A stretch of DNA of 64,000 bases from contig QIAU01000139.1 of assembly GCA_003225055.1 (NCBI GenBank), positions 1 to 64,000 on the forward strand. Reading direction: 5' to 3'. Positions 12,133 to 39,193 of the stretch are shown here, one piece after another. The notes beneath the pieces were generated by a model. That model worked only from the letters and a program-made list of their open reading frames with translations. It was not told where the DNA came from and ran no database searches. The position numbers and the translations under genes were made by a program. Numbering within the stretch: position 1 is the first letter of the stretch; every line of letters starts with the position of its first letter. Source of the DNA: Acidobacteriota bacterium (GTDB lineage: Bacteria > Acidobacteriota > Terriglobia > Terriglobales > Acidobacteriaceae).

Positions 12133-12136
12133 CAGG

Positions 12137-14766: not shown

Positions 14767-15325
14767 TCACTCGTATCTAAGCGCGACCATCGGATCGGTG
14801 CGGGCGGCACGGCGTCCGGGAAAATAGGCCGCCAGTAGCGCGACCGCGGCTAGTGTAGCGGCGACCACGCCACGCACGCACACCCAGGCCGTGGTGGTAA
14901 TCACCGGTCACAAATTGTCCCACTGCCAGTTCCGCCCGGCCGTTGGCGATGACGTTCAGCTTCTCGTTGGTCGCGAACGCGAATACGTCGGAGAACAGGT
15001 CCCTGGCCTGCCGCATACGATCGAGGGTGATGTATGGGAAGGATGTGCCCTGCAAGTGGCCGGTGGTGGAGAAATCCGACGTAGCGTTCCCGTCGTAGCC
15101 TCCCGGCACCGGAATTCTTCGGTCCTTCGAGTCCCCCACCATCAGCGCCAGCCCAGTTGGATTCCTGACCGGGAGCGGCTTCAGTAAGACCGCATTCACG
15201 ACCGAGAACAACGCGGTGTTCGCTCCGATTCCGCACGCCAGCGTCAGGATCACAATCAGGGTGAACCCCGGTCTTTTCCGCAGCTGCCGCAGCGCGTACT
15301 TGAGATCCTGCACTAAGCCATTCAT
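14767..15325 (-). pseudogene. Broken ADOP-type permease: N-terminal 145 residues joined out of frame to the last 35
   Basis: The ATG at 15325 opens a normal permease N-terminus ([14 protein letters not shown], then a transmembrane helix ending [19 protein letters not shown]) and continues into the periplasmic domain until [11 protein letters not shown]. The DNA then jumps to the far C-terminus of the same protein type. In another frame it reads [23 protein letters not shown] followed by DPMVALRYE and a stop at 14767, the hallmark end of its eight neighbours. About 1.9 kb is missing, and the junction lies in the short G-T-rich repeat near 14874-14888. The in-frame product ends after 182 residues with a nonsense tail, so it cannot transport. 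Confidence 0.9.
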
Positions 15326-17816: not shown

Positions 17817-17825
17817 TCTGTTCCC

Positions 17826-20330: not shown

Positions 20331-20346
20331 TCTCGTATTTACTCCT

Positions 20347-22767: not shown

Positions 22768-22779
22768 GGTTCATCCTTA

Positions 22780-25287
22780 TTATTCATAGCGCAGCGCCAC
22801 CATGGGATCGACCTTGGCGGCGCGGCGGGCGGGCAACGCAGCCGCCGCGAGCGCAACTGCCAAGATCGCTGCGCAGACAACAACGAGCGTCACCGGATCG
22901 TAATTTGAAATTCCAAATAACCGATTGCGCACCGTGCGAGTCAACAGCAACGCGAGGGGCATTCCGAGGGCAATGCCAATCGTCGCCAACCGGGCTACGT
23001 CAGAAAGCACCATTCGGACAACTTCGCTGCGACTGGCTCCCATTGCGATTCGTATGCCGATTTCCCGCGTGCGCTGCGCGGCCGAGTACGCCAGCACGCC
23101 ATAAATGCCAATCGCCGCCATCAGCGCGGCGAGCAGACCGAACGAGGTGGCCAGCAAGGCGATCACACGATCGTCGCTCAGGTTTTCATCCACCTGCTCT
23201 TGCATGGTTCGGAAGGCATCAAGAACGAGCTTTGAATCGAGCGCCTGCATGCCGGCGCGGATCGTGGACTCTGCGGCCTTGGGATCTTGCCAGGTGCGCA
23301 CGTAAAAGGTCATTCCGAAGCGGTAAACAACACCTAGCTGCGAGTCCTGCAAGTAAGGTGTGAAAACCGCACGACGGATGTTCTCGCGAACACCGTTATG
23401 CTTTGCATCTTTGACAACCCCCACGATCTCGATGTTCGGCTTTACGTCGCCAGCGCCGGCACAGAAGTAGTGGCCGAGCGCATCTTGAGGCCGCCCGAAG
23501 TAGCGCCTGGCGAAAGTCTCGTTTACCACCGCCACCTTCTGCGTACCCGAACGGTCGTGCTCCTCGATTTCCCTGCCAGCAAGCAAAGGCATTTTCATTG
23601 TCGAGAAATATTTAGCGCTCACCCGCGCCCATTCGACGTTCATGTCTTCACCTTCGGCAGCACGATAGCCGGCGATGGTAATGTTGTTTCCCCAATTGTT
23701 TTCGGCGAGCTCAGGATCATTCGTGGCCGCAGCGGATCGGAGACCGGGCATACTGGCCAGCTTGTCCAGTATTTCTTGATATAGGGCAATGGTCTGATTG
23801 TCCTCGTATCCAGCTAGCTTCGGGTCGACGGCAAAAGTGAGCAAATGGTCTGTGGTAAACCCGACATCAAGTGTTTTCAGATTGTGTAAAGAACGGGCAA
23901 AAAGGCCTGCTCCGATCAGCAACAATAGGCTGAGCGCGATTTGTGCGGCTACGGACGAGCAACGCAAGTAAGCCGATCCGCCCGCAACTACGGCTGCTTG
24001 TTGTTTTAGCGCCTGAGTGACGTCAGGTCGGCGAAATTGCAATGCCGGAACCAAACTGAAGAGCACGCTCACGAACAGCGTCAACCCGAAGTTGAACATC
24101 AGAATTCGCTGGTCGGGACGCGAGCTGAAGGCAAGATGGCCGGCCTTGCCGCTTAAAATTGTGTGAATCAATAAAGCAGCTATCTGCGGGGCCACGACGA
24201 TTCCAATTGCACCGCCCGCAAGTCCCAACAGCATGCCTTCTGCCAACAACTGCTGCATCAGCCGCCGCCGCTGTGCCCCCAGTGCGTAGCGGACTGAGAT
24301 CTCGCGAGTACGCCGCGCCACTCGCACCAGCAGCAGACTGGCTACATTCGCGCACGACATGAACGCCACCAGCCCTGCCAATGCCATTACGATCAGCAAG
24401 GTTGTGGACATTGTTGCGTGCATGGGTACACCTTTCGAGCCGTCATGGAGAAACAAATGAGAGTTTGTGAGGAAAGCATCGCGGAATCGTTGCGAGGTGC
24501 GCCCTATTTGCTTAAGCTCTTCCGCGCGAATCGAACGCCAAAGAGCATCGATAGCTGCCTGGCCCTGCGGGTGTGTGAGCCCGGGCTTGAACCTTCCGAC
24601 GATGTTCAGCCACTTTGATCGACGTTCTTCGAGATCATTCCAGCCCGGGGTTATCTCCGGTTTCATCGTCATGGGCACAAGGACCCCCGGGTTATCTCCG
24701 CTGACCACGCTATGAAAACTGGGCGGCGCAACACCAATCACAGTAAAAGGATGGCCATTGATCGAAATACTCTGGTTCACAATCTTCGGATCGGCGCCGA
24801 ACCGGCGCTGCCAATAGTTAAAGCTGAGCACCGCGACGGGATTGCCTTCTTGCACCAAATCGTCCGAGGACACCAACAAACGGCCGAGTGCAGGCTGGAG
24901 CCCAAGCACATCGAAGTAATTGCCGGAAACCAACTCCGCGTCCGCCAAGTCAGGTTGGTTGTGCCATTGCACACTGACCTGCGCCCAAGCAGTGGCAATG
25001 AGTCCGCTGAAAACGGAATTGCGGTCGCGCAAATCGCGGTACATGGGGTAGGAAAATACCTTTTGGGAGCCGCCACGAGCGTGCGTGCTTCCCGTATCGC
25101 CGCCTGAAAATCGCAGGAACACAAGTCGGTTTGGTTCTTTCACGGGCAGACTGCGCAACAGCGCTTGGTCGAGCAACGTGTAAATTGCCGTGTTGGCGCC
25201 GATGCCGAGAGCCAGCGTGAGCACCGCCACAATCGTGAAGGCAGGCGACTTCCGCAGCAGCCTCAATCCGTATCGAACGTCTTCCAT
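22780..25287 (-). CDS. ADOP-type FtsX/MacB permease 5
   Basis: An 835-residue permease. The ATG at 25287 has GAGGA six bases before it and gives MEDVRYGLRLLRKSPAF; the ATG four codons earlier has no comparable site. The first periplasmic domain contains FSYPMYRDLRDRNSVFSGLI and the phrase SGNYFDVLGLQPALGRLL, closest to permease 7. FtsX domain 1 has VAFMSCANVASLLLVRV, where the otherwise conserved LLIACAN is altered, and RRTREISVRYALGAQRRRL. FtsX domain 2 has [18 protein letters not shown]. It ends [16 protein letters not shown]. The 29-bp gap to permease 4 upstream is the largest between intact members of the array. Confidence 0.93.
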   Translation of the reverse strand: MEDVRYGLRLLRKSPAFTIVAVLTLALGIGANTAIYTLLDQALLRSLPVKEPNRLVFLRFSGGDTGSTHARGGSQKVFSYPMYRDLRDRNSVFSGLIATAWAQVSVQWHNQPDLADAELVSGNYFDVLGLQPALGRLLVSSDDLVQEGNPVAVLSFNYWQRRFGADPKIVNQSISINGHPFTVIGVAPPSFHSVVSGDNPGVLVPMTMKPEITPGWNDLEERRSKWLNIVGRFKPGLTHPQGQAAIDALWRSIRAEELKQIGRTSQRFRDAFLTNSHLFLHDGSKGVPMHATMSTTLLIVMALAGLVAFMSCANVASLLLVRVARRTREISVRYALGAQRRRLMQQLLAEGMLLGLAGGAIGIVVAPQIAALLIHTILSGKAGHLAFSSRPDQRILMFNFGLTLFVSVLFSLVPALQFRRPDVTQALKQQAAVVAGGSAYLRCSSVAAQIALSLLLLIGAGLFARSLHNLKTLDVGFTTDHLLTFAVDPKLAGYEDNQTIALYQEILDKLASMPGLRSAAATNDPELAENNWGNNITIAGYRAAEGEDMNVEWARVSAKYFSTMKMPLLAGREIEEHDRSGTQKVAVVNETFARRYFGRPQDALGHYFCAGAGDVKPNIEIVGVVKDAKHNGVRENIRRAVFTPYLQDSQLGVVYRFGMTFYVRTWQDPKAAESTIRAGMQALDSKLVLDAFRTMQEQVDENLSDDRVIALLATSFGLLAALMAAIGIYGVLAYSAAQRTREIGIRIAMGASRSEVVRMVLSDVARLATIGIALGMPLALLLTRTVRNRLFGISNYDPVTLVVVCAAILAVALAAAALPARRAAKVDPMVALRYE

Positions 25288-25316
25288 CACGTTCCTCATC
25301 GTTCACCCGAAATATT

Positions 25317-27827
25317 TCACTCGTATCTCAGCGCCACCATGGGATCGACCTTGGTCGCTCGCCAAGCCGGCGTGAGGGCCGCAGCGACGGAAACAGTCAT
25401 CAGCAGTGCGGCAGCCCCCAGTATGGTAGAAGGATCGTACGGACTCAGGCCGAACAGCAGGCTGCTTACACTGCGTGCAGCCGAAAGTGCCAAAAACAAG
25501 CCTGCGGCAATGCCGCTACCAATTAAAACGAGTGTCTGACGCAAAACAAGCCAAAGGACCGTCTTACGTGAAGCCCCTAAGGCTAACCTGATCCCGATCT
25601 CACCGGTCCGCCGTGCAACCGCAAACGCCGTAACTCCATAGAGATCGATGCAAGCGACAATTAACGCCAGGGCACCAAAGACGGTCGTCAGCCTGGTAAT
25701 CAGCCGTTCCTGCGCCAGATTGCTGCTCACCTGTTCTGCCAAAGTGGTAATTTTCCCGATGGGGAGATCGGGATCGATACTCTTAAGAACCTGGCGCACC
25801 TGTTCGGTTAACGAGGCAGGATTGGCGATAGCACGAACGTCGAGGCTGTGAACGTCGGGAACAAACTGCAACAACGGGAAGTAGACCAGGGGTGGTGCGT
25901 TTTCCCGAGGGCCATTGATCTGGGCGTCGGCGACGACCCCGATGATTTGAAACTCGCCTGCAGAGCTGGAGTCAAAGCCGAAACGTCGGCCGATAGGATC
26001 TTCGTCCGCGAAGAGTTTGCGGGCCAGCATTTGATTAATTGTCGCCACATGTGGGGCCCTCTCGGTGTCGCGGGCAGTAAACTCGCGCCCGCGCAGGAGC
26101 GGAATCCGCGTGTTTTCGAAGTACTCCAAGCTGACCACATTCACCTGTGGCGTTGCCGCGACCCTGGCGGCTCCTGGCACGTATATGTCACTGGCGCTCC
26201 TGCAGCTAGAGGCAAGCGGGCAAACGGCAAGAGACGCCGACCTTACTCCGGGGAGAGCTTGCACACGATCGAGGACCTCGTGGTAAAGCGAAAGCAGTTG
26301 ATCATGGCGGTAATGCCGGATGCTCGTATCGAGCCAGACACTGAGGATATGCTCGCGATCAAATCCAGGATCGAGCCGCACAAAATTTCGCAAGGTGCGA
26401 AGGAACAGGCCAGCGCCGACCATAAGCACAAGCGATAGGGCAAATTGTGCGACGACCAGAGCCTGTCGGAGTGGCCATTGGGCTCGCGTAAGCTGGGTGC
26501 TGGACGCCCGCGTCGCGCTTGCCTTGAGAGCATTGATGGGTTCGATGCGGGATCCTTGGAACGCCGGAGCCGAGCCGAAGAGAAGCCCTGCGGCCACCAC
26601 AACGGCGATGCTGAAGAGCAGGACTCGCGCATCCGGCGCAAGATTGAGCGGAATGGGGAACGATTCGAGGGATGCCCATTTGGGCAAGACCCGGTCACAG
26701 CCGTAGGCCACCCAGATCCCAAGCAAACCACCAAGAATCGAAAGCAGCAAAGATTCCGTCAGAAGCTGCCGGACGAGGCGGCTTCGGGTCGCGCCAATTG
26801 ACAGCCGTACTGCCATCTCGCGCATGCGGTTCGTACCCCGTGCCAGCAGCAGGCTGGCAAGATTCGCGCAAGCGATCAGCAACACCAGGCCGACCATTGC
26901 TGTCAACACCAGCAGCGGTCGTGCGAACTGTCTTTGCAATGTTTTGATTCCCTGTCCGCCGGGCTCAACGACTAGCTGATCATTGAATCGAGCCTGCCCG
27001 TCTTGAGTGGTTGCTCCTACGCCCTTCTCCCACGCATCTTCGGAAAACAGTTGGTTCAGGGTTCCGGAAATATGGCCCAATTCGTCCCGATGTCTCGCCC
27101 GCAGCACGAGTTCCAGCCAAGTAATGTCGTCTTGTAATACCCACGGCCTCTCCTGATGCGCGGCGGTGCTTTTGCTGTAGTGTTGGGCGTAATCGAGGGA
27201 CGACTGCATCATGAGCGGAAGCCAAAAATCCGGTGCTCTTCCCGGCTCCACGCCAAAGAAGTTGCGCGCCGCGACTCCCACCACCGTGAGACTCACGCCA
27301 TTAACAATCAGTTCGCGCCCAACCACGTGAGGATCAGCCGCGAAGCAACGGTTCCAGCACGCGTAACTGATCACCGCCACTGGATGTCCATCGATATTTC
27401 GATTGTCTTCGGCGCTTAGCAGTCTGCCGACTAACGGAAATGTTCCAAACGTCTGGAAAAAATTTCCCGATACAAGTTGGCCCTTCGTCAGCTGGAGCTG
27501 GCTTTTCCCAATTCCCACGTAGAAATCGCCTACCGGAGTCATCGCAGCCAGGCTTGCCGAACCAGGCATTGTCTTCAACATCCGGTCGTAAAGTGGATAA
27601 GAGACTCGCGTCTCGTCCGCAAACCGGTCATGCTGCCGAATCAGGAAAAGCTGCTCGGGACTCGGCACGGGTAAGGATTTCAGCAGAACCGCATTGACCA
27701 GAGTGAAAATGCCGGTGTTGGCGCCCGTCCCCAACGACAGAATAAGGACAGCAACCGCCGTAAACCCAGGGTTTTTGCGCAACTGCCGCCATGCGTATTT
27801 AAGGTCCTGGATCAAGCCACTCCTCAC
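25317..27827 (-). CDS. ADOP-type FtsX/MacB permease 4
   Basis: An 836-residue permease starting with GTG at 27827, supported by GAGGGAAC directly before it; that site overlaps the stop codon of permease 3, so translation is probably coupled. The first periplasmic domain (RVSYPLYDRMLKTMPGSASL) belongs to neither of the two subgroups seen in the other copies. FtsX domain 1 shows [16 protein letters not shown] and MREMAVRLSIGATRSRL. FtsX domain 2 shows [19 protein letters not shown], with Gly in place of the usual Arg. It ends [15 protein letters not shown]. Two-module topology and the absence of an ATPase domain match the rest of the array. Confidence 0.93.
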   Translation of the reverse strand: MRSGLIQDLKYAWRQLRKNPGFTAVAVLILSLGTGANTGIFTLVNAVLLKSLPVPSPEQLFLIRQHDRFADETRVSYPLYDRMLKTMPGSASLAAMTPVGDFYVGIGKSQLQLTKGQLVSGNFFQTFGTFPLVGRLLSAEDNRNIDGHPVAVISYACWNRCFAADPHVVGRELIVNGVSLTVVGVAARNFFGVEPGRAPDFWLPLMMQSSLDYAQHYSKSTAAHQERPWVLQDDITWLELVLRARHRDELGHISGTLNQLFSEDAWEKGVGATTQDGQARFNDQLVVEPGGQGIKTLQRQFARPLLVLTAMVGLVLLIACANLASLLLARGTNRMREMAVRLSIGATRSRLVRQLLTESLLLSILGGLLGIWVAYGCDRVLPKWASLESFPIPLNLAPDARVLLFSIAVVVAAGLLFGSAPAFQGSRIEPINALKASATRASSTQLTRAQWPLRQALVVAQFALSLVLMVGAGLFLRTLRNFVRLDPGFDREHILSVWLDTSIRHYRHDQLLSLYHEVLDRVQALPGVRSASLAVCPLASSCRSASDIYVPGAARVAATPQVNVVSLEYFENTRIPLLRGREFTARDTERAPHVATINQMLARKLFADEDPIGRRFGFDSSSAGEFQIIGVVADAQINGPRENAPPLVYFPLLQFVPDVHSLDVRAIANPASLTEQVRQVLKSIDPDLPIGKITTLAEQVSSNLAQERLITRLTTVFGALALIVACIDLYGVTAFAVARRTGEIGIRLALGASRKTVLWLVLRQTLVLIGSGIAAGLFLALSAARSVSSLLFGLSPYDPSTILGAAALLMTVSVAAALTPAWRATKVDPMVALRYE

Positions 27828-27833
27828 GTTCCC

Positions 27834-30281
27834 TCACTCGTAGCGCAGCGCCACCATGGGATCGACCTTGGCGGCGCGGTAAGCGGGAATCAGGCTGGCA
27901 AATAGCGCGACAATCGCGAGCACCGCCGCTACCGAGAGGAAGGTCAGAGGGTCGGTGGGCTTCACGCCATAAACCAGGCTCGACATCACACGCGCGAGCG
28001 CCAGCGCGCCAACCACTCCGATACTCATCCCCAGCAGCGTGGGCCTCATGCCTTCGAGGACGATCATGTGCAGGACATCGGATAAACTCGCGCCTAATGC
28101 CAGGCGAATTCCGATTTCCTGCACGCGCCGCCTCACGCTGTACGACAAAACGCTGTAAATTCCGATCGCCGCCAGAATCAGGGCGAGCATGGCGAAAGCT
28201 CCGAGGAGTGAAAGATTGAATCGTTGTTGCGAGAGCGAATTGGTTACCAGGTCGTCCATCGTGAGCACGTCGCGCACGGGAACATCTGCATCAACTTCGC
28301 GAACAGCATTGGTCACCGGGGAAACTAAGCTCACGGGAGTTGAACTGGAGCGAACGACAATGGCCATGGGAAATGAACGCCATCCGCCGCTCGCCGGTGT
28401 GGTCAACTGAGTTAGCGGAACGTAAAGGGTTGCCGTCGGGCGAGTCTGGTCGAGTCCGTCCCCCTTCACGTCGCCGACAACGCCGATAACCTCGCGAACG
28501 ACACCCGGAAAGAATGTCAGAGTTATGTGTTTTCCGATGGGATTTTCATTTCGCCAGAACTCCTTAGCCAGCGATGCGCTGACGAGAGTTGTCGCGGGGC
28601 GTCCGGCAACATCTGAGGAGTCGAAATCGCGCCCGCGCAAGACCGGGATACGCAGCGCGCTCGTGTACCCCGCACTGATGACGCGCACATCGACTTCGGG
28701 TTGTTCTGACATTGGCACTACCGGGCGGCCTTCGACTGCGATCGGCTGATGGGAGCCGTTTCCGCTCAGCGGGAGATCGTCAATTACTCCGGCGGAGAGA
28801 ACTCCCGGAAGCGCGCGGGTGCGTTCAAGCACGCGCTCGAAAAAGCTGATCTGTTGCGCCGGCTCAGGAAACTTTGCGCTTGAAACTGCGGCGGTCATGG
28901 TCAAAACCCCGTGCGATTCAAACCCGGGATTCACTTGTCGGAGCATCTGGAAGCTGCGGATCATTAAACCTGCGCCAATCAGCAGGACCAAAGACAATGC
29001 GACCTCTACGACCACCAGAATGCTGCGGGTACGTTTGCCACCGGAGTCGGCGTCGGTCCGCCCCAATCCCTGTTTCAGCTCCTGATTAACGTTGCCCCGG
29101 CTCAGCTGCAACGCCGGTAGAATTCCGGCGATCACGCCGGTGAGCACGGAGACAACAGCGGTGAAGGCGAGTACCTTGATATTCATGCTGGCCTCGACCG
29201 AGGCGGGCAATTTATCGGCGAGGAAGGCCATGATCAACCGGATGCCATATTGCGCATAGGTGAGCCCGAGCGCGCCTCCGAGCAGCGCGAGAACCACACT
29301 CTCAGCCAGAATCTGGCGAACGATGCGCGCGGAACTTGCGCCCAGGGCAGTGCGAATGGCAATTTCCTTGTGACGGCTGAAAATCCTGGCCAGCGAAAGA
29401 TTGGTTACGTTAACGCAGGCGATGAGGAGAATGAATCCCACTGCTCCGAGCAACACCAGGAGTGCAGGGCGTACATCGCTCACCAGATCTGAGTGAAGCG
29501 GCAGTACCACTGCGCCCCACCCTTTGTCGTCTGCGGGATATTGCTGCTGCAGGCGACCCGAAATTGTATTCATCTCTGCCTGCGCCTGCTTCAGGTCAAC
29601 GCCGGGCCTGAGCCGCGCGATCACCAGGTAGTTGTGATTGCCGCGAACGGCTCTGTCCTGATCGGTCCAGGCGAGTGGTGTCCACATCTGGGCAAAGTCC
29701 GGGAAGCGGAGGCTTGGTGGCATCACGCCGGCAACCAAATAAGCTATGCCGTCGACGGTGATGTTGTGGCCGACGATCTCGCGATTGGAACCAAAATGCT
29801 CCTGCCAGAAGCGATGGCTGAGAACAACCACGTTTGAGCGCCCGGGCTGGTCTTCATCGGGCAAGAGCACGCGGCCGATAATAGGCTGAACGCCGAGAGT
29901 GGAGAAAAATTTAGCTGAAACAGCGCTCGCGGCGACCTGCTCGGCTTTGCCTCCGGTGGTCAGCGTAAACCCGCGATAACCGTAGATTGCCATGCTGTCG
30001 AAGACATGGTTCTGGTCTTGCCAATCGAGGTAGTTGGCAGGTGAAACGGCAAATTGGTTCATTCCAGGAAAACTGCTCCGCGGCGGTGTATGCCAGATCC
30101 GGACCAGACGGTCAGCGTCTTTGAATGGCAGTGCGCGAAGCAGGACACTATTCACAACGCTGAAAATCGCAGTGTTCGCGCCTATGCCGAGCGCGAGGGT
30201 GACGACCGCGACGGCGGCGAAGGCCGGCGCCTTCTGAATCTGGCGGAATGCGTAGCGTAAGTCTTGAAGTACTCCAGACAT
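27834..30281 (-). CDS. ADOP-type FtsX/MacB permease 3
   Basis: An 815-residue permease. The ATG at 30281 has GAGGAGA upstream and gives MSGVLQDLRYAFRQIQKAPAF; the longer frame begins inside the 3' end of permease 2. Its periplasmic domain contains NYLDWQDQNHVFDSMAIYGY. FtsX domain 1 has LLIACVNVTNLSLARIF with KEIAIRTALGASSARI, and FtsX domain 2 has RRRVQEIGIRLALGASLSDV. The C-terminus is [15 protein letters not shown]. Permeases 1, 2 and 3 share the VNVxNL or TNVANL form of the first FtsX motif, so the three promoter-proximal copies appear most closely related. Confidence 0.93.
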   Translation of the reverse strand: MSGVLQDLRYAFRQIQKAPAFAAVAVVTLALGIGANTAIFSVVNSVLLRALPFKDADRLVRIWHTPPRSSFPGMNQFAVSPANYLDWQDQNHVFDSMAIYGYRGFTLTTGGKAEQVAASAVSAKFFSTLGVQPIIGRVLLPDEDQPGRSNVVVLSHRFWQEHFGSNREIVGHNITVDGIAYLVAGVMPPSLRFPDFAQMWTPLAWTDQDRAVRGNHNYLVIARLRPGVDLKQAQAEMNTISGRLQQQYPADDKGWGAVVLPLHSDLVSDVRPALLVLLGAVGFILLIACVNVTNLSLARIFSRHKEIAIRTALGASSARIVRQILAESVVLALLGGALGLTYAQYGIRLIMAFLADKLPASVEASMNIKVLAFTAVVSVLTGVIAGILPALQLSRGNVNQELKQGLGRTDADSGGKRTRSILVVVEVALSLVLLIGAGLMIRSFQMLRQVNPGFESHGVLTMTAAVSSAKFPEPAQQISFFERVLERTRALPGVLSAGVIDDLPLSGNGSHQPIAVEGRPVVPMSEQPEVDVRVISAGYTSALRIPVLRGRDFDSSDVAGRPATTLVSASLAKEFWRNENPIGKHITLTFFPGVVREVIGVVGDVKGDGLDQTRPTATLYVPLTQLTTPASGGWRSFPMAIVVRSSSTPVSLVSPVTNAVREVDADVPVRDVLTMDDLVTNSLSQQRFNLSLLGAFAMLALILAAIGIYSVLSYSVRRRVQEIGIRLALGASLSDVLHMIVLEGMRPTLLGMSIGVVGALALARVMSSLVYGVKPTDPLTFLSVAAVLAIVALFASLIPAYRAAKVDPMVALRYE

Positions 30282-30291
30282 CAATCTCTCC

Positions 30292-32703
30292 TCACTCGTA
30301 CCGCAGGGCCACCATGGGATCGACTTTCGCGGCGCGGCGGGCGGGGATGTAGGACGCACTCAGCGCAACCGCAGCCAACAGAAGAGCAACGCCTAAGAAT
30401 GTTTGCGGATCAGTCCGACTGACCGAGAACAGCATGCTCGACAACAGACGAGTCGCGATCATCGATGCGGTCAGTCCAATTCCCATGCCAGCGAGCGCCA
30501 AGGCTGAGCCGTACCGGAGCACGAGCCTAAGAATGTCTTCGCGCGAAGCCCCTAAGGCCATGCGGATTCCGATTTCATTTCTTCGTTGGGTGACGGAATA
30601 GGCCATCAAACCGTAAAGGCCGATCGCGGCGAGCAACAGAGCGAGCGCCGCAAAAATCCCCAGCACTTGCGATGAGAATCGCGGCTGAGCTGCCGATGCG
30701 CCCAGAACATCATTCATCGATGTGACCGCCGAGAGCGTTACGGCTTTATCGACTGCACCGACTTGCGCTTGCAGAGCCGCGCCTAGATTCATTGGATTGG
30801 CGGCGGCTCGCACGACAACATTCATCGTGGGCGGTGCAAACTGCGCGTATGGGACATACATCTCCGACCAGTCGGGTTCGCTAAGCGCGATGTGTCGAAT
30901 GTCCCCGATCACACCGACGATTTCCCGGGTCGAAGCCGTATCGCCCATGAGTTGCAGGCGTTTGCCGATCACATCACTGCCAGGAAAGAAACGCTTCGCA
31001 AATGCTTGGTTGACGACCGCAACTCCGGGCGAGTTCTCGTCATCGTGTTCATTCAGCCATCGTCCCGAAATCAAGGGAATGCCCATTACTGAGAGATAGC
31101 CAGGCGTGACCTGGCGGAATTGGGCGTCGTCGAACTCACTTGGGCCGTAGATGTGTCCCGGAATATGGAAGGGATCGTCACTGTGCTGTCCGCTCAGAGG
31201 CAGTTCAGAGGTTGCGCCAACGGTTTCGACTCCGGGAAGAGCTTTGACGTGCTCCTCAAATTGCCGCCAGAACTGGACACGCGCCCGGGGATCGGCATAG
31301 GGCCCATAGGACGATAGGGGCAGACTCAATCGCGCGGTCACAACGTGATCGGTCTGAAAGCCTGGTGAAACGTGGATCAACCGCCAAAAACTCTTGAGCA
31401 GCAGGCCAGCGCCGACCAGCAATGTGAGCGATATGGCGATTTCGCCGATCACGAGGGCGCTGCTAAATCGCTTGTACGACGCCGGCGCTGAGGTACGGCC
31501 GGATTCCTTTAATCCTTGGATAAATTCGCCAGCGGAAACCCGCAGGGCTGGCATGAGGCCAAACACAACACCAGTCAATACAGAAATTCCGATTGTGAAA
31601 GCGAGGACCGTCGGATTGAGACAGCTTTCTCCCAGCCGCGGGACGTCGTGTGGGCCGAAGGCATGCAGCGCGTGAATGCTCCACCATGCAGCAAGTACCC
31701 CAATAGCGCCTCCAGCGAGAGAAAGCACCACACTCTCGGTGAGCGTCTGGCGGATCAGGCGTATGCGACTCGCTCCGAGAGCAGCGCGCAACGAAAATTC
31801 CCTCTGTCGCGAAATCGAGCGTGCAAGCAGTAGGTTCGCAACATTGACGCATGCAATTAGCAAGAGCAGACTAACCGCACCCCACATAAGCAACAGCGCT
31901 GGGCGCACCGGTCCAATCAGCACGTCGCGCAATGGCCTCTGGCGCATCCACCAACCTTTATTAGTATCGGGATACTGGTGCTGCAATTGCAGCGCAATGG
32001 CATCCAAATCGGCTTGAGATTGCCCAAGCGTAATACCTGGCTTGAGGCGCCCAATTGCTTTCAGTGAATGCCCCAGGCGGAAACTCATCAACCGATTCAG
32101 CATCGGAGTCGGCAGCCAAATCTGAGCTTCGCTGAGCAATGGCACATCGGACGGCAGGACCCCGACGACGGTTAAAGGCGCGCCATCCATCCTGATGGTG
32201 CGCCCCACAACGTTGCGATTGCCGCCGAAATCGCGCTTCCAGACGCCATAGCCGAGAATCGCCACTTGCGGCTCGTTCACTTGTTCGTCCGACAGAAGAA
32301 AGTCCCGCCCAAGCAAGGGGCGAATGCCCAGGCACGCGAAGAAATTAGCGGATGCAATGGTTGTCAGGACCTGCTCGGGTTTATCGCCTGAAAGGTTTGA
32401 TGGCCCAGCCACGTAGCCCATCCCCGCAATCCGTTCAAACGCTCGGTTCGCGGCCCGGTAATCGCGAAAGTCGGGTGGTGAAACACCTGCTTCATCGCTC
32501 ATTGGCATCTTGCCGTTAAGCCATACCAAACGATCAGGGATCCCAAAGGGTAATGGACGCAGGATCACCGCTTCGATGACGCTGAAGATGGCCGTGTTCG
32601 CGGCGATTCCAAGCGCCAGAGTGATGACAGCTACCGAGGTGAATCCCGGGCTCTTGCGCAACTGCCGCAGCCCGTAACGAAGATCTTGCAGTAAGCCGCT
32701 CAT
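30292..32703 (-). CDS. ADOP-type FtsX/MacB permease 2
   Basis: An 803-residue permease. GAGGAAAGTCT precedes the ATG and is partly made by the stop codon context of permease 1. The first periplasmic domain has DFRDYRAANRAFERIAGMGY, with Arg-Asp-Tyr in place of the LDW seen in its nearest relatives. FtsX domain 1 has LLIACVNVANLLLARSI with REFSLRAALGASRIRL. FtsX domain 2 has RRNEIGIRMALGASREDI. The C-terminus is [16 protein letters not shown]. The gap to the gene upstream is 9 bp. No substrate can be inferred from sequence. Confidence 0.93.
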   Translation of the reverse strand: MSGLLQDLRYGLRQLRKSPGFTSVAVITLALGIAANTAIFSVIEAVILRPLPFGIPDRLVWLNGKMPMSDEAGVSPPDFRDYRAANRAFERIAGMGYVAGPSNLSGDKPEQVLTTIASANFFACLGIRPLLGRDFLLSDEQVNEPQVAILGYGVWKRDFGGNRNVVGRTIRMDGAPLTVVGVLPSDVPLLSEAQIWLPTPMLNRLMSFRLGHSLKAIGRLKPGITLGQSQADLDAIALQLQHQYPDTNKGWWMRQRPLRDVLIGPVRPALLLMWGAVSLLLLIACVNVANLLLARSISRQREFSLRAALGASRIRLIRQTLTESVVLSLAGGAIGVLAAWWSIHALHAFGPHDVPRLGESCLNPTVLAFTIGISVLTGVVFGLMPALRVSAGEFIQGLKESGRTSAPASYKRFSSALVIGEIAISLTLLVGAGLLLKSFWRLIHVSPGFQTDHVVTARLSLPLSSYGPYADPRARVQFWRQFEEHVKALPGVETVGATSELPLSGQHSDDPFHIPGHIYGPSEFDDAQFRQVTPGYLSVMGIPLISGRWLNEHDDENSPGVAVVNQAFAKRFFPGSDVIGKRLQLMGDTASTREIVGVIGDIRHIALSEPDWSEMYVPYAQFAPPTMNVVVRAAANPMNLGAALQAQVGAVDKAVTLSAVTSMNDVLGASAAQPRFSSQVLGIFAALALLLAAIGLYGLMAYSVTQRRNEIGIRMALGASREDILRLVLRYGSALALAGMGIGLTASMIATRLLSSMLFSVSRTDPQTFLGVALLLAAVALSASYIPARRAAKVDPMVALRYE

Positions 32704-32712
32704 AGACTTTCC

Positions 32713-35130
32713 TCACTCGTAGCGCAGCGCTACCATGGGATCGACCTTGGCGGCCCGGCGGGCGGGGATGTAGCAAGCCAGCATGGCCGTCGCTAATAAC
32801 ACGGCCGCGACTCCGACCAATGCCCGGATATCCACTGCTGCTACTCCATAGACCATGTTTTTCATGGCGCGACCGACAAAGTAGGTACCCAGTAATCCAG
32901 CCACGGATCCGACCAGCGCCAAACCCACACCCTCCCTCAAAATCAGCCCCAGCACCTTGTCCCGGCCGGCCCCGAGCGCCATCCGTACGCCAATCTCGTG
33001 TGTACGCTGCGTAACAGCGAAGGCCATTACGCCGTAGATCCCAATTGCGGCGAGCAACAGAGCAAACGCGGCAAAGGTTGCGTACAAGACGGTGGTGAAG
33101 CGATCTGACGCGAACGACTCATTGACGATCTGATCCATGGTTCTCACAAAAGCCAAAGGCAGCTCCGGTTCTATGGAACGAATCGCCTTCGCCACGTTCT
33201 CGGTCATCTCTCCTGGATCGCCCGTAGTCCGAACCGCCAGGTTTGCCTGCGGCCACGGACTCTGCCAAAAAGGCACGTCAATTTCCGGATAGTCATCACG
33301 AAGATCACCAGTCCGCACGTTGTGGAAGATGCCCACGATCTGCCATTCCACTGGAGGACCATTGCGGGTGACGCCTGGAATCAGCTGTTCGATTGTGAGG
33401 CGCTGGGTGAGGGGATCAACCCCGGGCAAGTAACGCCTGACGAACTCCTCATTTACCATGGCTACCCGCACGCTCCCCGATGTATCTCGTTCAGTGAAGC
33501 CGCGCCCCTTTACCACGCGAATGCCGAAGGTTTGGAAGTATCCTGGCGTGACCATCTGAAATCCCGCATTGGTCCGAGATGACGCATCCTGCGGAGAGCC
33601 CACGACTGTAAAAAACATGCCAAACCGTCGGCCTCGTACCGGAGTGGCAGTCGCCGCCTCCGCGCGAGTAACACCGGGAATCGATTCCAACTTTTCCAAA
33701 ACCTGACGGTAAAACGCGACGATCTCGTCTGCGCTGGAGAAACGACCCTGCGGTACTGGAAGAGAAAAGGTGAGAATGTGATCGCGGCGAACGCCCAAGT
33801 CTACCTGAATAATATTCCAGAAGCTGTGGATGGCCAGCCCCGCCGCTGCCAACAGCGTCAGCGCCAGGGCGAACTCTACGACCACCAGGGTTCGTCGCAA
33901 CTGATGCCGGCCGGCACCGTTGCCGGCGCGCCCGCCTTCCTTGAGCGCTTCGTTGGGATTAACGCGCGATGCCTGCCATGCGGGGGCGCAACCGAATAAA
34001 ATAGCGGCCGCCATCGTGGCTATCAGCGTGAAGTAAAGTGTGGGGAGGCTTATCTGGATGTCAGCTTCTGAAGGCAATGTGGAAGGCGGCATGATTGTGA
34101 TCAGCGCCTTGAGGATGGCTTGACCCACACCGATGCCGACTGCAGCTCCCATTATGGCCAGCACCAGGCTCTCGACCAGAAACTGCGTGAAAAGCTTGCG
34201 ACGGCTTGCACCCATGGAAGCTCGTACTGCGATTTCTCGTTGTCGTGTGGTGCCTCGGGCTAGCAGTAAATTGGCGACGTTGGTGCACGCAATCAACAAA
34301 ACCAAGCCGACCGCGCCCATCAACAGCCACAGGGTCGAAAGGGTTTGGCGAGGTATGAAATTATTGCGGAGAGGCTCGACGCTTGCTCCCCAATTCTTGT
34401 TCGAATCCGGATGGTCTTGAGCGATCCGGCGCGTCACGACGTCCATGTCGGCTTGTGCCTGCGGCATAGACACTCCCGGCTTGAGACGTCCCATTACGGT
34501 CAACCAACGAAACTTATGATCCATTTGGTCGGGTTTGAAGGCCAAGGGAGCGGTCACCTGAACCGGGAGCCGATCAGCCACACCTGGCGCCAGCACTCCT
34601 ACCACGCTGTAGAGCTCGCCATTCATCCGGATCTGCCGGCCGATGATGTTGCGATCAGCGCCCAGGCGCTCCCACAAGTTGTGCATAAGAATAACGACGT
34701 GGTCTTTGCCTGTCTCCCCTTCCTCGGACACAAAGTCACGGCCTAGGAAGAAACGAAAACCCTGCATGGTGAACCAGCCAGGCGTGGTGAGATGGCCGGG
34801 CACCTCTTCGGGGCGGTCCGATGTAGCCAGATTGAAGTTGGCATCCGTCCACGCGTTCAGATCCTGAAAGGCGGAGTTCTGTCGTTTCCAATCGAGGAAA
34901 TCACCAGTCGAAACTACGCTGCGGCCGTCGCTCACTCTTGACCACACCATAACCAGCTGTTCGGGATGTGGATAGGGCATGGGTTCGAGAAAAGTCGCGT
35001 AAACCACGCTGTAAATCGCGGTTGTCGATCCGATGCCCAGCGAGAGCGTCAGGACCGCGACTAAGGTGTACCCGGGATTCTTGCGCAACTGCCGCAATGC
35101 ATAGCGTAGGTCTTGGAATAAGCCGCTCAT
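32713..35130 (-). CDS. ADOP-type FtsX/MacB permease 1 (directly after an ATPase)
   Basis: An 805-residue permease whose ATG overlaps the TGA of the preceding ABC ATPase (ATGA), the tight coupling expected of true transporter partners. The first periplasmic domain has GDFLDWKRQNSAFQDLNAW. FtsX domain 1 has LLIACTNVANLLLARGT with REIAVRASMGASRRKL, and FtsX domain 2 has RTHEIGVRMALGAGRDKV. It ends [16 protein letters not shown]. Family descriptions of these permeases stress the lack of neighbouring ATPases, so this junction is notable. This copy is the best candidate for the original partner of the upstream ATPase. Confidence 0.94.
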   Translation of the reverse strand: MSGLFQDLRYALRQLRKNPGYTLVAVLTLSLGIGSTTAIYSVVYATFLEPMPYPHPEQLVMVWSRVSDGRSVVSTGDFLDWKRQNSAFQDLNAWTDANFNLATSDRPEEVPGHLTTPGWFTMQGFRFFLGRDFVSEEGETGKDHVVILMHNLWERLGADRNIIGRQIRMNGELYSVVGVLAPGVADRLPVQVTAPLAFKPDQMDHKFRWLTVMGRLKPGVSMPQAQADMDVVTRRIAQDHPDSNKNWGASVEPLRNNFIPRQTLSTLWLLMGAVGLVLLIACTNVANLLLARGTTRQREIAVRASMGASRRKLFTQFLVESLVLAIMGAAVGIGVGQAILKALITIMPPSTLPSEADIQISLPTLYFTLIATMAAAILFGCAPAWQASRVNPNEALKEGGRAGNGAGRHQLRRTLVVVEFALALTLLAAAGLAIHSFWNIIQVDLGVRRDHILTFSLPVPQGRFSSADEIVAFYRQVLEKLESIPGVTRAEAATATPVRGRRFGMFFTVVGSPQDASSRTNAGFQMVTPGYFQTFGIRVVKGRGFTERDTSGSVRVAMVNEEFVRRYLPGVDPLTQRLTIEQLIPGVTRNGPPVEWQIVGIFHNVRTGDLRDDYPEIDVPFWQSPWPQANLAVRTTGDPGEMTENVAKAIRSIEPELPLAFVRTMDQIVNESFASDRFTTVLYATFAAFALLLAAIGIYGVMAFAVTQRTHEIGVRMALGAGRDKVLGLILREGVGLALVGSVAGLLGTYFVGRAMKNMVYGVAAVDIRALVGVAAVLLATAMLACYIPARRAAKVDPMVALRYE

Positions 35131-35852
35131 GCGCGCGCATCCTGCATCAGCTTGTGCAGCTCTTCTTCGGCCACGACTTTGCCGTCGAAGAGATGGATTT
35201 CGCGCTGCGCATGTTTAACGAACCGCGGGTCGTGCGTGACCATGCAGATGGTTGCGCCTTCGCGGTGGAGGTCTTGAAGCAGCTCCATGACCGCTTCGCC
35301 GTTGCGCGAATCCAGATTCCCGGTGGGTTCGTCCGCAAGCAGGATGGAAGGATGTCCGGCGAGCGCCCTGGCGACGGCGACTCTCTGCTGCTGGCCTCCG
35401 GAAAGTTGCGAAGGGTAATGCCTGATTCGGTGCGCCATGCCGACGCGCTCCAGCGATTCCATGACACGTTTTTTGCGCTCCGCCGAAGGCATTCTCTGCC
35501 GGTAGGTCAGCGGCAATTCCACGTTCTCGTAAACCGTGAGATCGCCAATCAGATTGAAACTCTGAAATATGAAACCAATCTCGCGGTTGCGAATGCGGGA
35601 GCGGGCTGCAAAATCCAGGTTTTCGACCGGCTCGTTGTTCAGCCGGTACTTCCCGCCGGTCGGCGTATCGAGCAAGCCCATAATAGAAAGGAGCGTGGAC
35701 TTGCCGCATCCTGACGGTCCGGATATAGCCACGTATTCCCCTTTCCCAATTCCCAAATGGACTCCAGAGAGCGCGTGCGTCTCGACCTCGTCGGTATAAA
35801 AAACTTTCGTCAGGTCTTCGATCTGGATCAGGGGTTGTCCTGCTTCGCTCAT
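35127..35852 (-). CDS. ABC transporter ATP-binding protein, MacB/LolD type (first ATPase)
   Basis: A 241-residue nucleotide-binding subunit. Walker A is GPSGCGKSTLL (about residues 40-50), the Q-loop is in FIFQSFNLIGDLTVYEN, the signature is the canonical LSGGQQQRVAVARAL, Walker B is [11 protein letters not shown], and the switch His is in MVTHDPRF. All catalytic elements are intact, unlike the variant signature of the second ATPase 20 kb downstream. It lies between the adaptor (20-bp gap) and permease 1 (4-bp overlap), the usual MacA-MacB order with the MacB domains on separate chains. I infer that it energises at least permease 1 and possibly the whole array. Confidence 0.95.
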   Translation of the reverse strand: MSEAGQPLIQIEDLTKVFYTDEVETHALSGVHLGIGKGEYVAISGPSGCGKSTLLSIMGLLDTPTGGKYRLNNEPVENLDFAARSRIRNREIGFIFQSFNLIGDLTVYENVELPLTYRQRMPSAERKKRVMESLERVGMAHRIRHYPSQLSGGQQQRVAVARALAGHPSILLADEPTGNLDSRNGEAVMELLQDLHREGATICMVTHDPRFVKHAQREIHLFDGKVVAEEELHKLMQDARA

Positions 35853-35872: not shown

Positions 35873-37132
35873 CTAATCAAGCCGGATGCGGTCGGTATTG
35901 TCGTAGCGCGACATGTCGGAAAGGATGACGGTGTCGCCTTGGTGCAGGCCTTCGAGAATCTGGATTGAGTTCACGGACGCTCGCCCAACTTTCACCGGAA
36001 CGCGCACGCCGCTCCTGCCGTCCGGATCAAGTTTGAACAAGCTGATGATGCTGTTTTCTTGTCCAAAGGCTGGGCGGCCGGTATAGAGCACGTCGTCCAG
36101 GCGCTCCAAATCAATGGTTCCGTCAACGCTCAGATCAGGCCGGGCTCCTTTGGGAAGCTCGCCTGTGAGTTTCACGTCGACCGTAACCGTGCCGTTTTGC
36201 ACCGCCGGATCGACGCGCATTACCGTGCCGGCGACCGTTCCGTTGTGAGTGTCGATCAAGGCGGGCTGGCCGATTTGGACGTCGCGCGCCTGTGTTTCCG
36301 CAATTTTCAACTCCGCCATTAAATGATCCGGCTGAACCACCTTTGCCAGCATCGTGCCCGGCGACACATGCTGTCCAACCTGCAGCGGAAGGTCGACCAG
36401 GACGCCTTCAATTTGCGCTCGAACCTTGAGTGCGTTTAGCTGCTTCTGTTTCAACTCGGCAAGCACGCGCATCTGATCAACCTTGGCTTCTTGTTGGGCA
36501 AGCTGGGATTCGATCGCTTTCTGGTTAACATCGAGGCGCTCACTCTCAAGATTGTTCCGGGTCGTCAGTTCATCGGCTTTGCTCTTGGAGTTCTTGTAGA
36601 CAAGTCCAGAAATCACCCCGAGATCGTAGAGCGCCTTGTCGGTGTCGGCCTGACGCTGGGCTTGGGTGTAGTCGGAGGTCACGGTCGCCGCCCCGGCTTT
36701 TTGGTTCATCAGATCGCTCTGGAGTTTCACGCGCAGGCTCTGGTATTCAGCCTCTGCGGCCTTCAACTGAAGTCTTGCGTCCACCGCAGCCTGCTCCACC
36801 TGCGGATTGCTCATCTCGACCAGAATCGTGTCCGCTTGCACCTCGGAGCCGGGCAATTTGAGGATTCGGATAACCGTCGCCTCTGTCTCCGCCGGTATTT
36901 GACGGGTGAACTCTTGGCTGGGAATTAACGAACCTAGACCTCTCACCTGGCGAAGCATGGAGCCGCGCTTCACGCTGTCGGTCCAGACGGTACTGCGCTC
37001 GACCTCAGGCGCGGCAGGCTTCAGTCTGGAGATGCCGATCGTCGCCGCGCCCAGGCACACGATACCAATCGCCGACCAGATGATCTGCCGGCGTCGCTTT
37101 TGTCGCTTGAATTCAGGCCGAGCAATATCCAC
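35873..37132 (-). CDS. MacA/HlyD-type periplasmic adaptor protein
   Basis: A 419-residue adaptor anchored by one N-terminal transmembrane helix (about residues 17-36, IIWSAIGIVCLGAATIGISR). Order of parts: a beta/lipoyl lead-in (VRGLGSLIPSQEFTRQIPAE), a long helical hairpin of about residues 105-225 rich in Lys, Gln and Glu, the second lipoyl half (IEGVLVDLPLQVGQHVSPG), and beta-barrel and membrane-proximal parts ending GDTVILSDMSRYDNTDRIRLD. The start is GTG at 37132 with an in-frame stop four codons upstream and no Shine-Dalgarno, so it may be read from a nearly leaderless transcript. It is the first gene of the efflux unit and should bridge permeases and TolC. Confidence 0.93.
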   Translation of the reverse strand: MDIARPEFKRQKRRRQIIWSAIGIVCLGAATIGISRLKPAAPEVERSTVWTDSVKRGSMLRQVRGLGSLIPSQEFTRQIPAETEATVIRILKLPGSEVQADTILVEMSNPQVEQAAVDARLQLKAAEAEYQSLRVKLQSDLMNQKAGAATVTSDYTQAQRQADTDKALYDLGVISGLVYKNSKSKADELTTRNNLESERLDVNQKAIESQLAQQEAKVDQMRVLAELKQKQLNALKVRAQIEGVLVDLPLQVGQHVSPGTMLAKVVQPDHLMAELKIAETQARDVQIGQPALIDTHNGTVAGTVMRVDPAVQNGTVTVDVKLTGELPKGARPDLSVDGTIDLERLDDVLYTGRPAFGQENSIISLFKLDPDGRSGVRVPVKVGRASVNSIQILEGLHQGDTVILSDMSRYDNTDRIRLD

Positions 37133-37144
37133 AGATGAAGATTA

Positions 37145-37160
37145 TGCAACTCGTTGGCCA
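37145..37160 (-). promoter_or_regulatory. Sigma-54-like (-24/-12) promoter element before the efflux operon
   Basis: Read on the minus strand the site is TGGCCAACGAGTTGCA. It keeps the defining GG-N10-GC spacing and matches TGGC and TTGCA of the consensus, differing in the middle. Transcription would begin near 37134, only about two bases before the GTG start codon of the adaptor. An NtrC-type activator is encoded in the same unit. It could be a chance match. Confidence 0.45.
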
Positions 37161-37509
37161 GAATCCACACCGTGCTATGCGATTGAAGGGCTCGGAGTTA
37201 GAGTTCCTGAAGGGATTCTTGTGCCAGCCGCGGTTGTCCGCTGGCGGAATTGGGTGTCCGTTATCGGACAGGCATGTGATCGGCTTGACGCGCCCCGACT
37301 TCGGCTCCCTGATGTCCTAAGAAACAACGAACGTACCTTGTTTCGCTCCCATGGACTGGCCTGAATTCTTGTGAGTCTGGGACCTGCCATTCAATCGGTT
37401 GCCCTACGTGCCCACAGAACGAACTCACAAGTGCAACATCCGCCGTTTTCACGCTGCAGCTGATGTTGCAGATGGCACCGGTAAACATCGCTTGAGTCGA
37501 AACCATAGG
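37161..37509. other. Intergenic stretch without a recognisable gene
   Basis: Short frames on both strands here have no recognisable motifs and overlap one another. Upstream activator sites for the NtrC-type regulator would be expected in this space, but I could not identify a convincing palindrome. Confidence 0.4.
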
Positions 37510-37526
37510 TCCTCCACAATGGAGGA
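37510..37526. promoter_or_regulatory. Palindrome upstream of the decayed toxin-antitoxin locus
   Basis: TCCTCC-acaat-GGAGGA is a perfect 6-bp inverted repeat, 20 bp before the antitoxin start codon. Antitoxins of this class repress their own promoters through such palindromes, so it is a plausible relic operator. Confidence 0.4.
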
Positions 37527-37545
37527 GGTTGGGAGTAAAACATAT

Positions 37546-37986
37546 ATGGCAATCCTCAACATCAAGAACTTTCCCGACGCTCTTTATGGTCATCTTCATC
37601 TACTTCATCGAAGAACGTCCCCGGTTTCTTCCCCTGCTCGAACCGCTTTTCAGAGGAGTCGATGACGGACGCAGGGAGTTGGTTACGTCGGCGCTTACTT
37701 TGCTGGAAGTCTTGGTCGTTCCCTACCGTTCCGGAGACCATCTGCTGGCCGAGCGCTATGAGGCTCTTCTCACGCAGAGTCGCGGGGTCCGGGTTGCAGA
37801 GATTTCGCGCGACCATTTGCGCGCGGCCGCGCAGCTCAGGGCCGAAACGGGAGTCCAGATGCCAGACTCTCTTCAGCTTGTGGCCGCATTGGCGGCGCCG
37901 GCTGCACTACTTTTCTCACCAATGATCGTGACCTCCCGACCATAGCTGGGCTCGGTATCTTGCAATTATCTTCCTGCGTTAGGTGA
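37546..37986 (+). pseudogene. Fused and frameshifted VapBC-like toxin-antitoxin remnant (PIN-domain toxin)
   Basis: The ATG at 37546 begins AILNIKNFPDALYG, the ribbon-helix-helix N-terminus of a FitA/VapB-like antitoxin. After about 14 codons the DNA switches to the start of a PIN-domain ribonuclease in another frame (MVIFIYFIEERPRFLPLLEP, then TSALTLLEVLVVPYR). The rest of the antitoxin and the first catalytic Asp of the toxin are deleted. Near 37887-37892 a one-base indel moves the toxin to a further frame, where its true end can be read as AGCTTFLTNDRDLPTIAG, ILQLSSC, and a stop at 37986. Remaining acidic residues are Glu in LLEVLVVP, Asp in QMPDSLQL and Asp in TNDRDLP. Both parts are inactivated. 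Confidence 0.82.
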
Positions 37987-38187
37987 TCCTGCAGCGCTAC
38001 CGAGGTGCTCAATGCCGGGAGGCGTTCTCGATGTTTGCGGTGTCAGGTCGAAGTCCCAGCCCGGGTCCGGAGTTCAGCGGCCGCCTTTCGAAATAAGTCG
38101 GAGAATTTTGTGGCTGCCCTGAGTCGACGTTCCGGCAGAAGTCGGGCCCCAGCGAAACCAAAGACGATTAGAGTCCACAGCAATGCA

Positions 38188-38313
38188 TCCAAACTTTGCG
38201 CCAGCTTGCGAATAAGTAAGGATTCCTCCGGGGTCGTTATCGACGTTCGCAGTAATAAAGCCGGGGCCAAACACCGCAAAAAACGCGAGTAAGCGGTACC
38301 GGAGCAACTTGGC
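38188..38313 (-). pseudogene. Fragment of an Nramp metal transporter gene (42 codons), inverted copy of 47487-47612
   Basis: Read on the minus strand, 42 codons spell the N-terminal segment AKLLRYRLLAFFAVFGPGF and ITANVDNDPGGILTYSQAG, identical in protein to the intact transporter at 47460-48722. I count six nucleotide differences over 126 bp, all in third codon positions and all silent. Upstream there is no in-frame start. Downstream the similarity fades after LLWTLI. It is a gene relic of no coding use. Confidence 0.85.
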
Positions 38314-38455
38314 GAGACGGCATATGAGCGCGGGTAAACGCCGGTTAATCGGAGGCGCGCAAAGCTGTGGCAAACGCGCTGGTCCATTGGCAGTTAAAAC
38401 GACTTTAGCAATACACCTTACGAAAAGAGCGCTTCTCCAAACCCAAGGTTCGCCT

Positions 38456-39193
38456 TCAGGGGCGCACTTCGTTGGCCTCGAGCAGCTCGCGGATCGCGCG
38501 CACTCTCGCTTCGAACTGAGACATCTCGATGTTTGACACGGGGGAAGCCGACCTGGGGCGGGGGCTGACTCGCGACCTACCAAGCGAAGTATGGACATAG
38601 CACGCGCGGGTCTGGGCGAGGACATGGTGTACATTGCTCGCGTCAATGCCTCCGCCCGGCATGATGGTGATGCGGCCGGCCGCTTGCTTCACGAGCTGCT
38701 CAATTTGGACCACACCGTCCGCTGCTGTGGCGGCGCCTCCAGAAGTAAGAAGGCAGTTGGCTCCGGTTTTAATCACCAATCCCAAGGACGACAAAAGATC
38801 CTGGCACTCGTCAAATGCTTTGTGAAAGGTTACGGGAATGGGCGCCGCCAATTTCACCAACCTCGCCGTGCGGGTAAGGTCGATCCTCTTGCCGGCTTCG
38901 AGAACCCCGAGCACAATCCCATCTGCGCCAAGCTGCTTCAGGGCAGCAATGTCGCACTCCATCGTGTCGAGTTCACAGTCGGAGTAGCAGAAGTCGCCAA
39001 GGCGCGGACGGATCAGAACGTGAATGGGGATATATACCCGCCGGCGGACTTCCGCAATGAGGCCTCGACTGGGCGTCGCCCCTCCGGAAAACAGCTCGCT
39101 GCAAAGCTCAATCCGGTCAGCGCCACCGCGTTCTGCAGCGACAGCGTATTCCACCGACTCAACGCAGATTTCCACGACGACACCGTTCTTCAT
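38456..39193 (-). CDS. cutC: CutC-family protein (copper homeostasis)
   Basis: A 245-residue cytoplasmic TIM-barrel protein of the CutC family. The diagnostic opening VEICVESVEYAVAAERGGADRIELCS, the next strand RRRVYIPIHVLIRPRLGDFCYS, the central ITFHKAFDE-like PVTFHKAFDECQDLL and CLLTSGGAATAADGV, then RITIMPGGGIDASNV are all present. The length is normal. CutC has been linked to copper tolerance, but its biochemical activity is not settled. The ATG at 39193 is 64 bp from the end of the receptor gene upstream. The C-terminal 40 residues (ARVRAIRELLEANEVRP) are ordinary for the family. Confidence 0.95.
   Translation of the reverse strand: MKNGVVVEICVESVEYAVAAERGGADRIELCSELFSGGATPSRGLIAEVRRRVYIPIHVLIRPRLGDFCYSDCELDTMECDIAALKQLGADGIVLGVLEAGKRIDLTRTARLVKLAAPIPVTFHKAFDECQDLLSSLGLVIKTGANCLLTSGGAATAADGVVQIEQLVKQAAGRITIMPGGGIDASNVHHVLAQTRACYVHTSLGRSRVSPRPRSASPVSNIEMSQFEARVRAIRELLEANEVRP

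Follow-up and report, generated by a model that had tools for sequence, protein, structure and literature searches.

The 16-base element TGGCCAACGAGTTGCA on the minus strand at positions 37145–37160 of the window (the whole 64,000-nucleotide stretch of Acidobacteriota DNA analysed here) is probably a working sigma-54 promoter of a two-component exporter regulon under positive feedback, from which the mRNA of the lead gene would emerge leaderless or nearly so. Read from 37160 to 37145, it consists of GG, ten bases and GC at -24/-12; 12 further bases lead to the GTG (37132–37130) of a gene for an HlyD/MacA-type periplasmic adaptor (35873–37132, minus strand; assigned from Pfam and relatives). 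An in-frame TAA follows the -12 box directly (37144–37142, minus strand), which excludes a start codon further upstream, and no GGAG, GAGG or AGGA precedes the adaptor GTG in the window. The intact GG-N10-GC, a GTG lacking a ribosome binding site and an in-frame stop shortly upstream of it had each been pointed out in a preliminary description of this DNA, and all three are borne out by the sequence. By convention the GC of a sigma-54 element is counted as -13/-12, and by that count the predicted +1 is close to 37134, leaving about 2 nt ahead of the GTG. Mapped starts in Campylobacter, according to the accessible part of PMC3847290, have the sigma-54 motif 8–13 nt upstream, the motif there ending one base later than here; applied to the adaptor, this distance would leave a leader of none to a few nucleotides. 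The motif position and the Campylobacter distances together predict a transcript start zone at 37130–37137 (minus strand, centre ~37134).

Taken by itself, the promoter motif is at chance level, with two exact matches to TGGC-N7-TTGCW in the 64-kb window against 1.67 expected, so that the whole case hangs on relatives. Adaptor genes were collected from 100 genomes, in which orthologues (E <1e-100) and paralogues (E >1e-22) separated among the matches listed, the exceptions being a few short fragments of high identity. The 59 upstream regions from this search were combined with 69 non-duplicate regions from 78 of 80 named loci, giving 128, of which 125 were kept; the closest named adaptors, at 87% identity, belong to MAGs of Acidobacteriales, and we accordingly take the window's family to be of that group. 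Of the 125 regions, 96 have GG-N10-GC with up to two mismatches 8–35 nt ahead of the adaptor start; shuffled sequences averaged 3.1 such regions and never exceeded 8, and zones further upstream gave an average of 2.5% and at most 7.2%. These regions are related by descent, and the counts are therefore not independent. With a matrix derived from 87 orthologous sites, none of them from the window or from relatives of at least 85% identity, the 37145–37160 site outscored every other position on either strand of the 64 kb. The two computational checks proposed in the preliminary description, scoring the region with a sigma-54 matrix and looking for the element before homologous operons, both turned out favourably. 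The genome has rpoN (one Sigma54_DBD match, E 3.5e-60), and a conserved tandem dyad, at which activator binding is predicted, lies upstream of the -24/-12 GG-N10-GC. That the 16-mer is a chance match, with expression relying on another system, would agree with the chance-level number of exact matches in the window, but its place and spacing and the paired dyads are conserved in relatives, leaving this explanation a negligible probability.

Within the 96 regions, the element stood 12–16 nt from the start codon in 75; a wider scan of 8–45 nt placed it at 11–17 nt in 79 regions and at 20–41 nt in 18. Even with up to three mismatches allowed in this 8–45 nt zone, it was absent from 21 of the 125 regions, among them the second copy in genome G036 (L054), a region containing unknown bases (L186), and regions from Vicinamibacterales and Verrucomicrobia; three of the 21 (L086–L088) have an element at 48 nt. 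In region L174 the promoter is 24 nt from the ATG as against 13 nt in its tree sister L159, a difference of 11 bp, or about one helical turn. The upstream region of a Planctomycete adaptor gene (L217) has an inverted repeat, TTGGGATCGCCGATCCCAA, ~165 bp upstream and, 28 nt ahead of the start, a promoter-like element.

A pair of dyads absent from the preliminary description lies ~100 bp upstream of the promoter. Predicted activator dyad 1, TGTCCGATAACGGACA (37255–37270, minus strand), is a perfect palindrome of the form TGTCCG-N4-CGGACA and the top score of the window with a held-out matrix; predicted dyad 2, ATTCCGCCAGCGGACA (37235–37250, minus strand), supported by relatives, follows 20 bp downstream. 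The dyad was spotted in the window and then tested on the 124 other regions, where TGTCCG-N4 came first of 53,248 dyads scored (60 of 124). With up to one mismatch, it was present in 61 of 125 regions at -175 to -80 versus 0 of 125 at -270 to -175. A second copy lay at +20 in 52 of the 70 regions that have one (up to four mismatches), and the dyad-to-promoter offset was 99–104 in 55 of 68 held-out regions, with minor groups at 89–94 and 78–81, about a helical turn apart. Conserved tandem dyads with helical-turn offsets are typical of the enhancers that serve looping activators, and we predict this site to be one. By eye, stretches related to TGTCCG-N4-CGGACA can also be seen upstream of the adaptor in L219 and L220 (for example GTCCCGCAAGCGGGAC in L220), and these suggest that, outside the group to which the window belongs, the activator site is an older or a diverged one. 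A literature search on the dyad half-sites returned nothing relevant by title among the matches listed.

Whether the adaptor mRNA is leaderless depends on the start codon. An adaptor start further downstream, preceded by an ordinary leader, would account for the use of GTG, a weak start, given that leaderless mRNAs usually begin with AUG; in the available sections of PMC3616915, all leaderless mRNAs of S. meliloti do so. In the 77 regions with near spacing (up to 16 nt), 70 start codons are ATG and six are GTG, which makes the GTG of the window a weak point for the leaderless reading. Against a downstream start, adaptor codons 2–7 (mostly DIxRPE/D; the protein has an MDIxRP-like conserved N-terminus) are conserved across these 77 regions with variation mainly at third positions, the coding constraint beginning at codon 2, and where relatives have a Shine-Dalgarno-like motif it stands before the same codon. 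An in-frame stop falls inside the spacer or -12 box in 19 of the 77. The stops and the third-position variation together indicate that the adaptor start codon is well placed, and we regard a downstream start as very improbable.

The promoter and dyads may also be real while the mRNA is not leaderless in practice, most of the protein coming from a leadered transcript of a promoter further upstream, or a shifted transcription start providing a short functional leader. This has room in the ~1.3 kb without a recognised gene upstream, and it gains from relatives that combine longer spacing with Shine-Dalgarno-like motifs and from two regions, L075 and L185, that have such a motif despite short spacing. 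On the other side, no sigma-70-like site was found in 36800–38500, which is weak evidence since shuffled sequences average only 0.7; the stop after the -12 box and the lack of a Shine-Dalgarno motif mean that lengthening the transcript would bring in no ribosome site of that kind; and a second gene of the regulon, encoding a phosphatase, has a spacing of exactly 12 nt in 8 of 26 loci. We consider this alternative unlikely, though it is the strongest of those weighed. The stretch concerned, 37133–38455, lies between the operon and cutC and contains a 112-aa frame (37261–37599) with no Pfam match; Rfam gave no match in the window, and a plasmid blastn with the promoter region gave none either.

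The nearly leaderless adaptor mRNA implied by the preliminary description, with a promoter box that would set +1 at or next to a start codon lacking a Shine-Dalgarno motif, gained support from the narrow spacing, from the rarer Shine-Dalgarno motif and from the second gene with the same geometry. GGAG, GAGG or AGGA occurs within 18 nt of the start in 5 of the 77 near regions versus 10 of 18 with a spacing of at least 19 nt (Fisher 8e-6); the five are L064, L075, L184, L185 and L194, and L075 and L185 have the stretch in a good position. Promoter and dyads of this kind are present in the cultured relatives Acidipila rosea DSM 103428 (L190) and Silvibacterium bohemicum S15 (L194), and also in Paracidobacterium acidisoli 4G-K13 (L195, identical in region to L075), which adds a Shine-Dalgarno-like stretch. 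A quick tree built from 49 adaptors has one supported clade in which most rows (26 of 31) show near spacing; such spacing reappears in a different part of the tree in three Gammaproteobacterial MAGs, and all the states together require nine changes versus 17.8 when shuffled. The spacing is 11 nt in L214 and L218, and a reading by eye gives 11 nt for L220 as well if the ATG that lies one codon before the aligned start is used. These distributions suggest two origins of near spacing in the adaptor gene.

Strict-consensus searches asked whether near-start sigma-54 placement is general. TGGCAC-N5-TTGCW occurred at eight places in the window's own genome, equalling the eight of the reversed control, and none had a plausible gene start at 12–16 nt. 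For TGGCACG-N4-TTGCW in 60 family genomes, 30 loci of a longer list were read: 20 lie inside a frame of at least 200 aa and none of the other ten has a start at 11–16 nt, one (L315) having ATG codons at 8 and 32 nt. On this small sample, the searches gave no support to near-start geometry being general in these genomes.

The adaptor heads a co-directional run on the minus strand with gaps of at most 58 nt. Domain matches place an ABC ATPase of MacB/LolD/DarD-like type second (35127–35852), followed by eight ADOP (MacB-like) permeases, the first three by domain or ADOP match (32713–35130, 30292–32703 and 27834–30359) and the others by ADOP match (25317–27827, 22780–25299, 20347–22767, 17826–20450 and 15384–17816). 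All eight exceed the ADOP (TIGR03434) cut-off of 622.3 bits, at 725.1 to 983.4, and the whole genome has 17 matches over it. An ADOP remnant follows (14777–15325), a 182-aa frame covering model positions 1–136, with positions 770–803 matched at 14770–14871; judged by these matches it is a probable permease gene without its middle, inside the permease array. Beyond it lie a second ABC ATPase (14035–14742) and a TolC-like outer membrane efflux protein (12137–14038), both identified by domain match, the NtrC-type response regulator that is the predicted activator of the adaptor promoter (10726–12174, 14th gene of the run) and a sensor histidine kinase with an AtoS/ZraS-like C-terminal half, recognised by domain matches (9228–10778). 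This set resembles MacAB-TolC and the darobactin exporter DarBCD in its adaptor, MacB/LolD-like ATPase, FtsX/MacB_PCD permeases and TolC-like channel, and the DarC model aligns over almost the whole of the window's adaptor; the DarC/DarD assignment is below NCBI cut-offs (71.8 versus 450 bits; 239.8 versus 375 bits). Unlike those systems, it has eight ADOP permeases in the operon and more elsewhere. The distance from adaptor to regulator is 24,958 bp here compared with a median of 7,394 bp in the 37 genomes with both on one contig, and the tandem ADOP array (15384–35130) therefore looks expanded.

The regulator has receiver, sigma-54-interaction AAA+ and Fis-type HTH domains (Pfam, above cut-offs) and reads GAFTDA in the GAFTGA loop, as had been stated previously. 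GAFTDA was present in all 25 readable orthologous regulators (29 scanned); the 15 other readable enhancer-binding proteins of the genome (21 scanned) have GAFTGA, GSFTGA or GAFSGA. The literature on the variant is mixed in outcome: the accessible text of PMC4641369 on Desulfovibrio lists GAFTDA among variants that would keep activity, the sections available of PMC2941729 report signal-independent activity for the same change in NorR (G266D), and in the part seen of PMC10714721 the GAFTDA protein VfmH did not pull down sigma-54. With cut-offs of E 1e-100 for the adaptor and 1e-120 for the regulator, 49 of the 100 genomes have both, nine the adaptor only, two the regulator only and 40 neither (Fisher ~1e-16); in 35 of the 37 genomes with the two on one contig, they lie within 35 kb of each other. 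At the cut-offs used, the 49 upstream regions from genomes with a regulator orthologue comprise 38 with the element and 11 without, and 34 with the dyad and 15 without; in the eight regions from genomes without such an orthologue, three have the element and two the dyad. The earlier suggestion that the system regulates itself is made plausible by the regulator's place in the co-directional run and by a conserved dyad at the promoter that would suit an NtrC-type activator.

Sites of the same kind were found beyond the operon. The 7.4-Mb genome contains 11 instances of TGTYCR-N4-YGRACA, against 2 for the control, and besides the operon three of these have a convincing promoter and downstream gene. 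On contig C73 the gene is a receiver-SpoIIE phosphatase, with a second dyad, an offset of 103 and 12 nt to the ATG. The other two are stray ADOP permeases: that on C80 has a second dyad, an offset of 100 and a likely ATG, preceded by GGTGGAGG, 56 nt away, and that on C197 has a single dyad, an offset of 61 and 26 nt to the ATG. Among eight upstream regions scanned for ADOP genes outside the operon, only those on C80 and C197 have a close dyad. The perfect dyad at C102:38781 has neither a promoter match nor a second copy and was taken as chance; a second copy was likewise absent at six further places in the genome, one of which (C278) has a promoter-like match with two mismatches at offset 71. 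A composite dyad-plus-promoter pattern gave 33 places in 20 of the 100 genomes versus two for the reversed pattern. The 30 composite loci read lead to 17 adaptor genes, seven permease-like genes (recognised by eye in the translations, C80 excepted) and two receiver genes, while four (L254, L257, L261 and L263) lead to none of these types. The sites at the operon, the phosphatase and the two stray permeases are predicted to form one regulon.

The phosphatase gene (L030:1483–2652, in genome G000) fuses SpoIIE phosphatase to a receiver domain 54% identical to that of the operon regulator. A set of 26 receiver-SpoIIE loci was drawn from 200 genomes. In eight of them, one being that of the window's own genome, a distance of exactly 12 nt separates the promoter from an ATG; the spacer letters vary among the eight, and seven of these have the dyad at up to two mismatches. 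One further locus has 14 nt, and 17 of the 26 have longer spacing or no such element. In genome G039 a receiver gene is divergent from the adaptor gene, with dyads common to both, and in G024 a receiver-SpoIIE gene comes directly after the regulator gene. We read this gene as the clearest evidence for a near-leaderless geometry, its start being less certain than that of the adaptor because some loci have a later in-frame ATG.

NtrC/NifA-type sigma-54 promoters have the same GG-N10-GC, an AAA+ activator with Fis-type HTH and tandem 16-bp dyads ~100 bp upstream, and NifA sites have the shape TGT-N10-ACA, which the dyad fits. Here, by contrast, the dyad core is TGTCCG-N4-CGGACA and the promoter lies directly against the start codon, whereas in a typical sigma-54 gene a leader containing a ribosome site comes between. 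Bacterial leaderless genes, as presented in the portions seen of PMC3160421 and PMC4842269, similarly have a promoter box ~10–12 nt before the start and no Shine-Dalgarno motif, but theirs is a sigma-70-type TANNNT or extended -10 (TGnTA) rather than a -24/-12 sigma-54 box. A survey of sigma-70 boxes (PMC3160421, available part) found leaderless genes in all three Acidobacteria genomes included, averaging 13.3%. The accessible parts of PMC3616915, PMC12403871, PMC3847290, PMC4842269 and PMC5243855 describe no leaderless sigma-54 gene, and published start-site tables may hold examples. The sigma-54 regulons of Desulfovibrio vulgaris (PMC4641369) likewise pair a GAFTDA enhancer-binding protein, DVU2106, with target operons; by contrast with the present system, 'leaderless', 'MacB' and 'HlyD' are absent from its main text as accessible. 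Our literature search found nothing joining Acidobacteria and sigma-54 with MacB, or with a permease and a two-component system.

These data are consistent with the following model. On a presumed signal, the kinase whose gene closes the operon would phosphorylate the NtrC-type regulator, which would bind the tandem TGTCCG-N4-CGGACA dyads ~100 bp upstream and open sigma-54 polymerase parked at -24/-12. Sigma-54-dependent transcription would then begin at or within a few bases of the adaptor start codon, and we propose that the mRNA would thereby be leaderless or nearly so and translated as such. The operon would make a tripartite exporter resembling MacAB and DarBCD for a putative cargo, supplied with a pool of ADOP permeases, together with its own regulator and kinase, giving positive feedback, and the same dyad and promoter would drive the stray permeases and the receiver-SpoIIE phosphatase elsewhere in the genome. 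We lean somewhat towards the further view that selection fixes the distance between start codon and sigma-54 promoter in this regulon, an activator-gated, leak-free promoter feeding leaderless translation directly, and that this arrangement came about in two unrelated members of the regulon and, for the adaptor, perhaps on two occasions (in the window's family and, at 11 nt, in Gammaproteobacteria). For ADOP exporters, the analysis provides a concrete predicted regulon comprising site, activator and targets. Since orthologues of one gene include both near and far spacing, with Shine-Dalgarno-like motifs commoner where the leader is longer, the family would also serve as a natural experiment on whether leaderless translation can be supplied by sigma-54 transcription.
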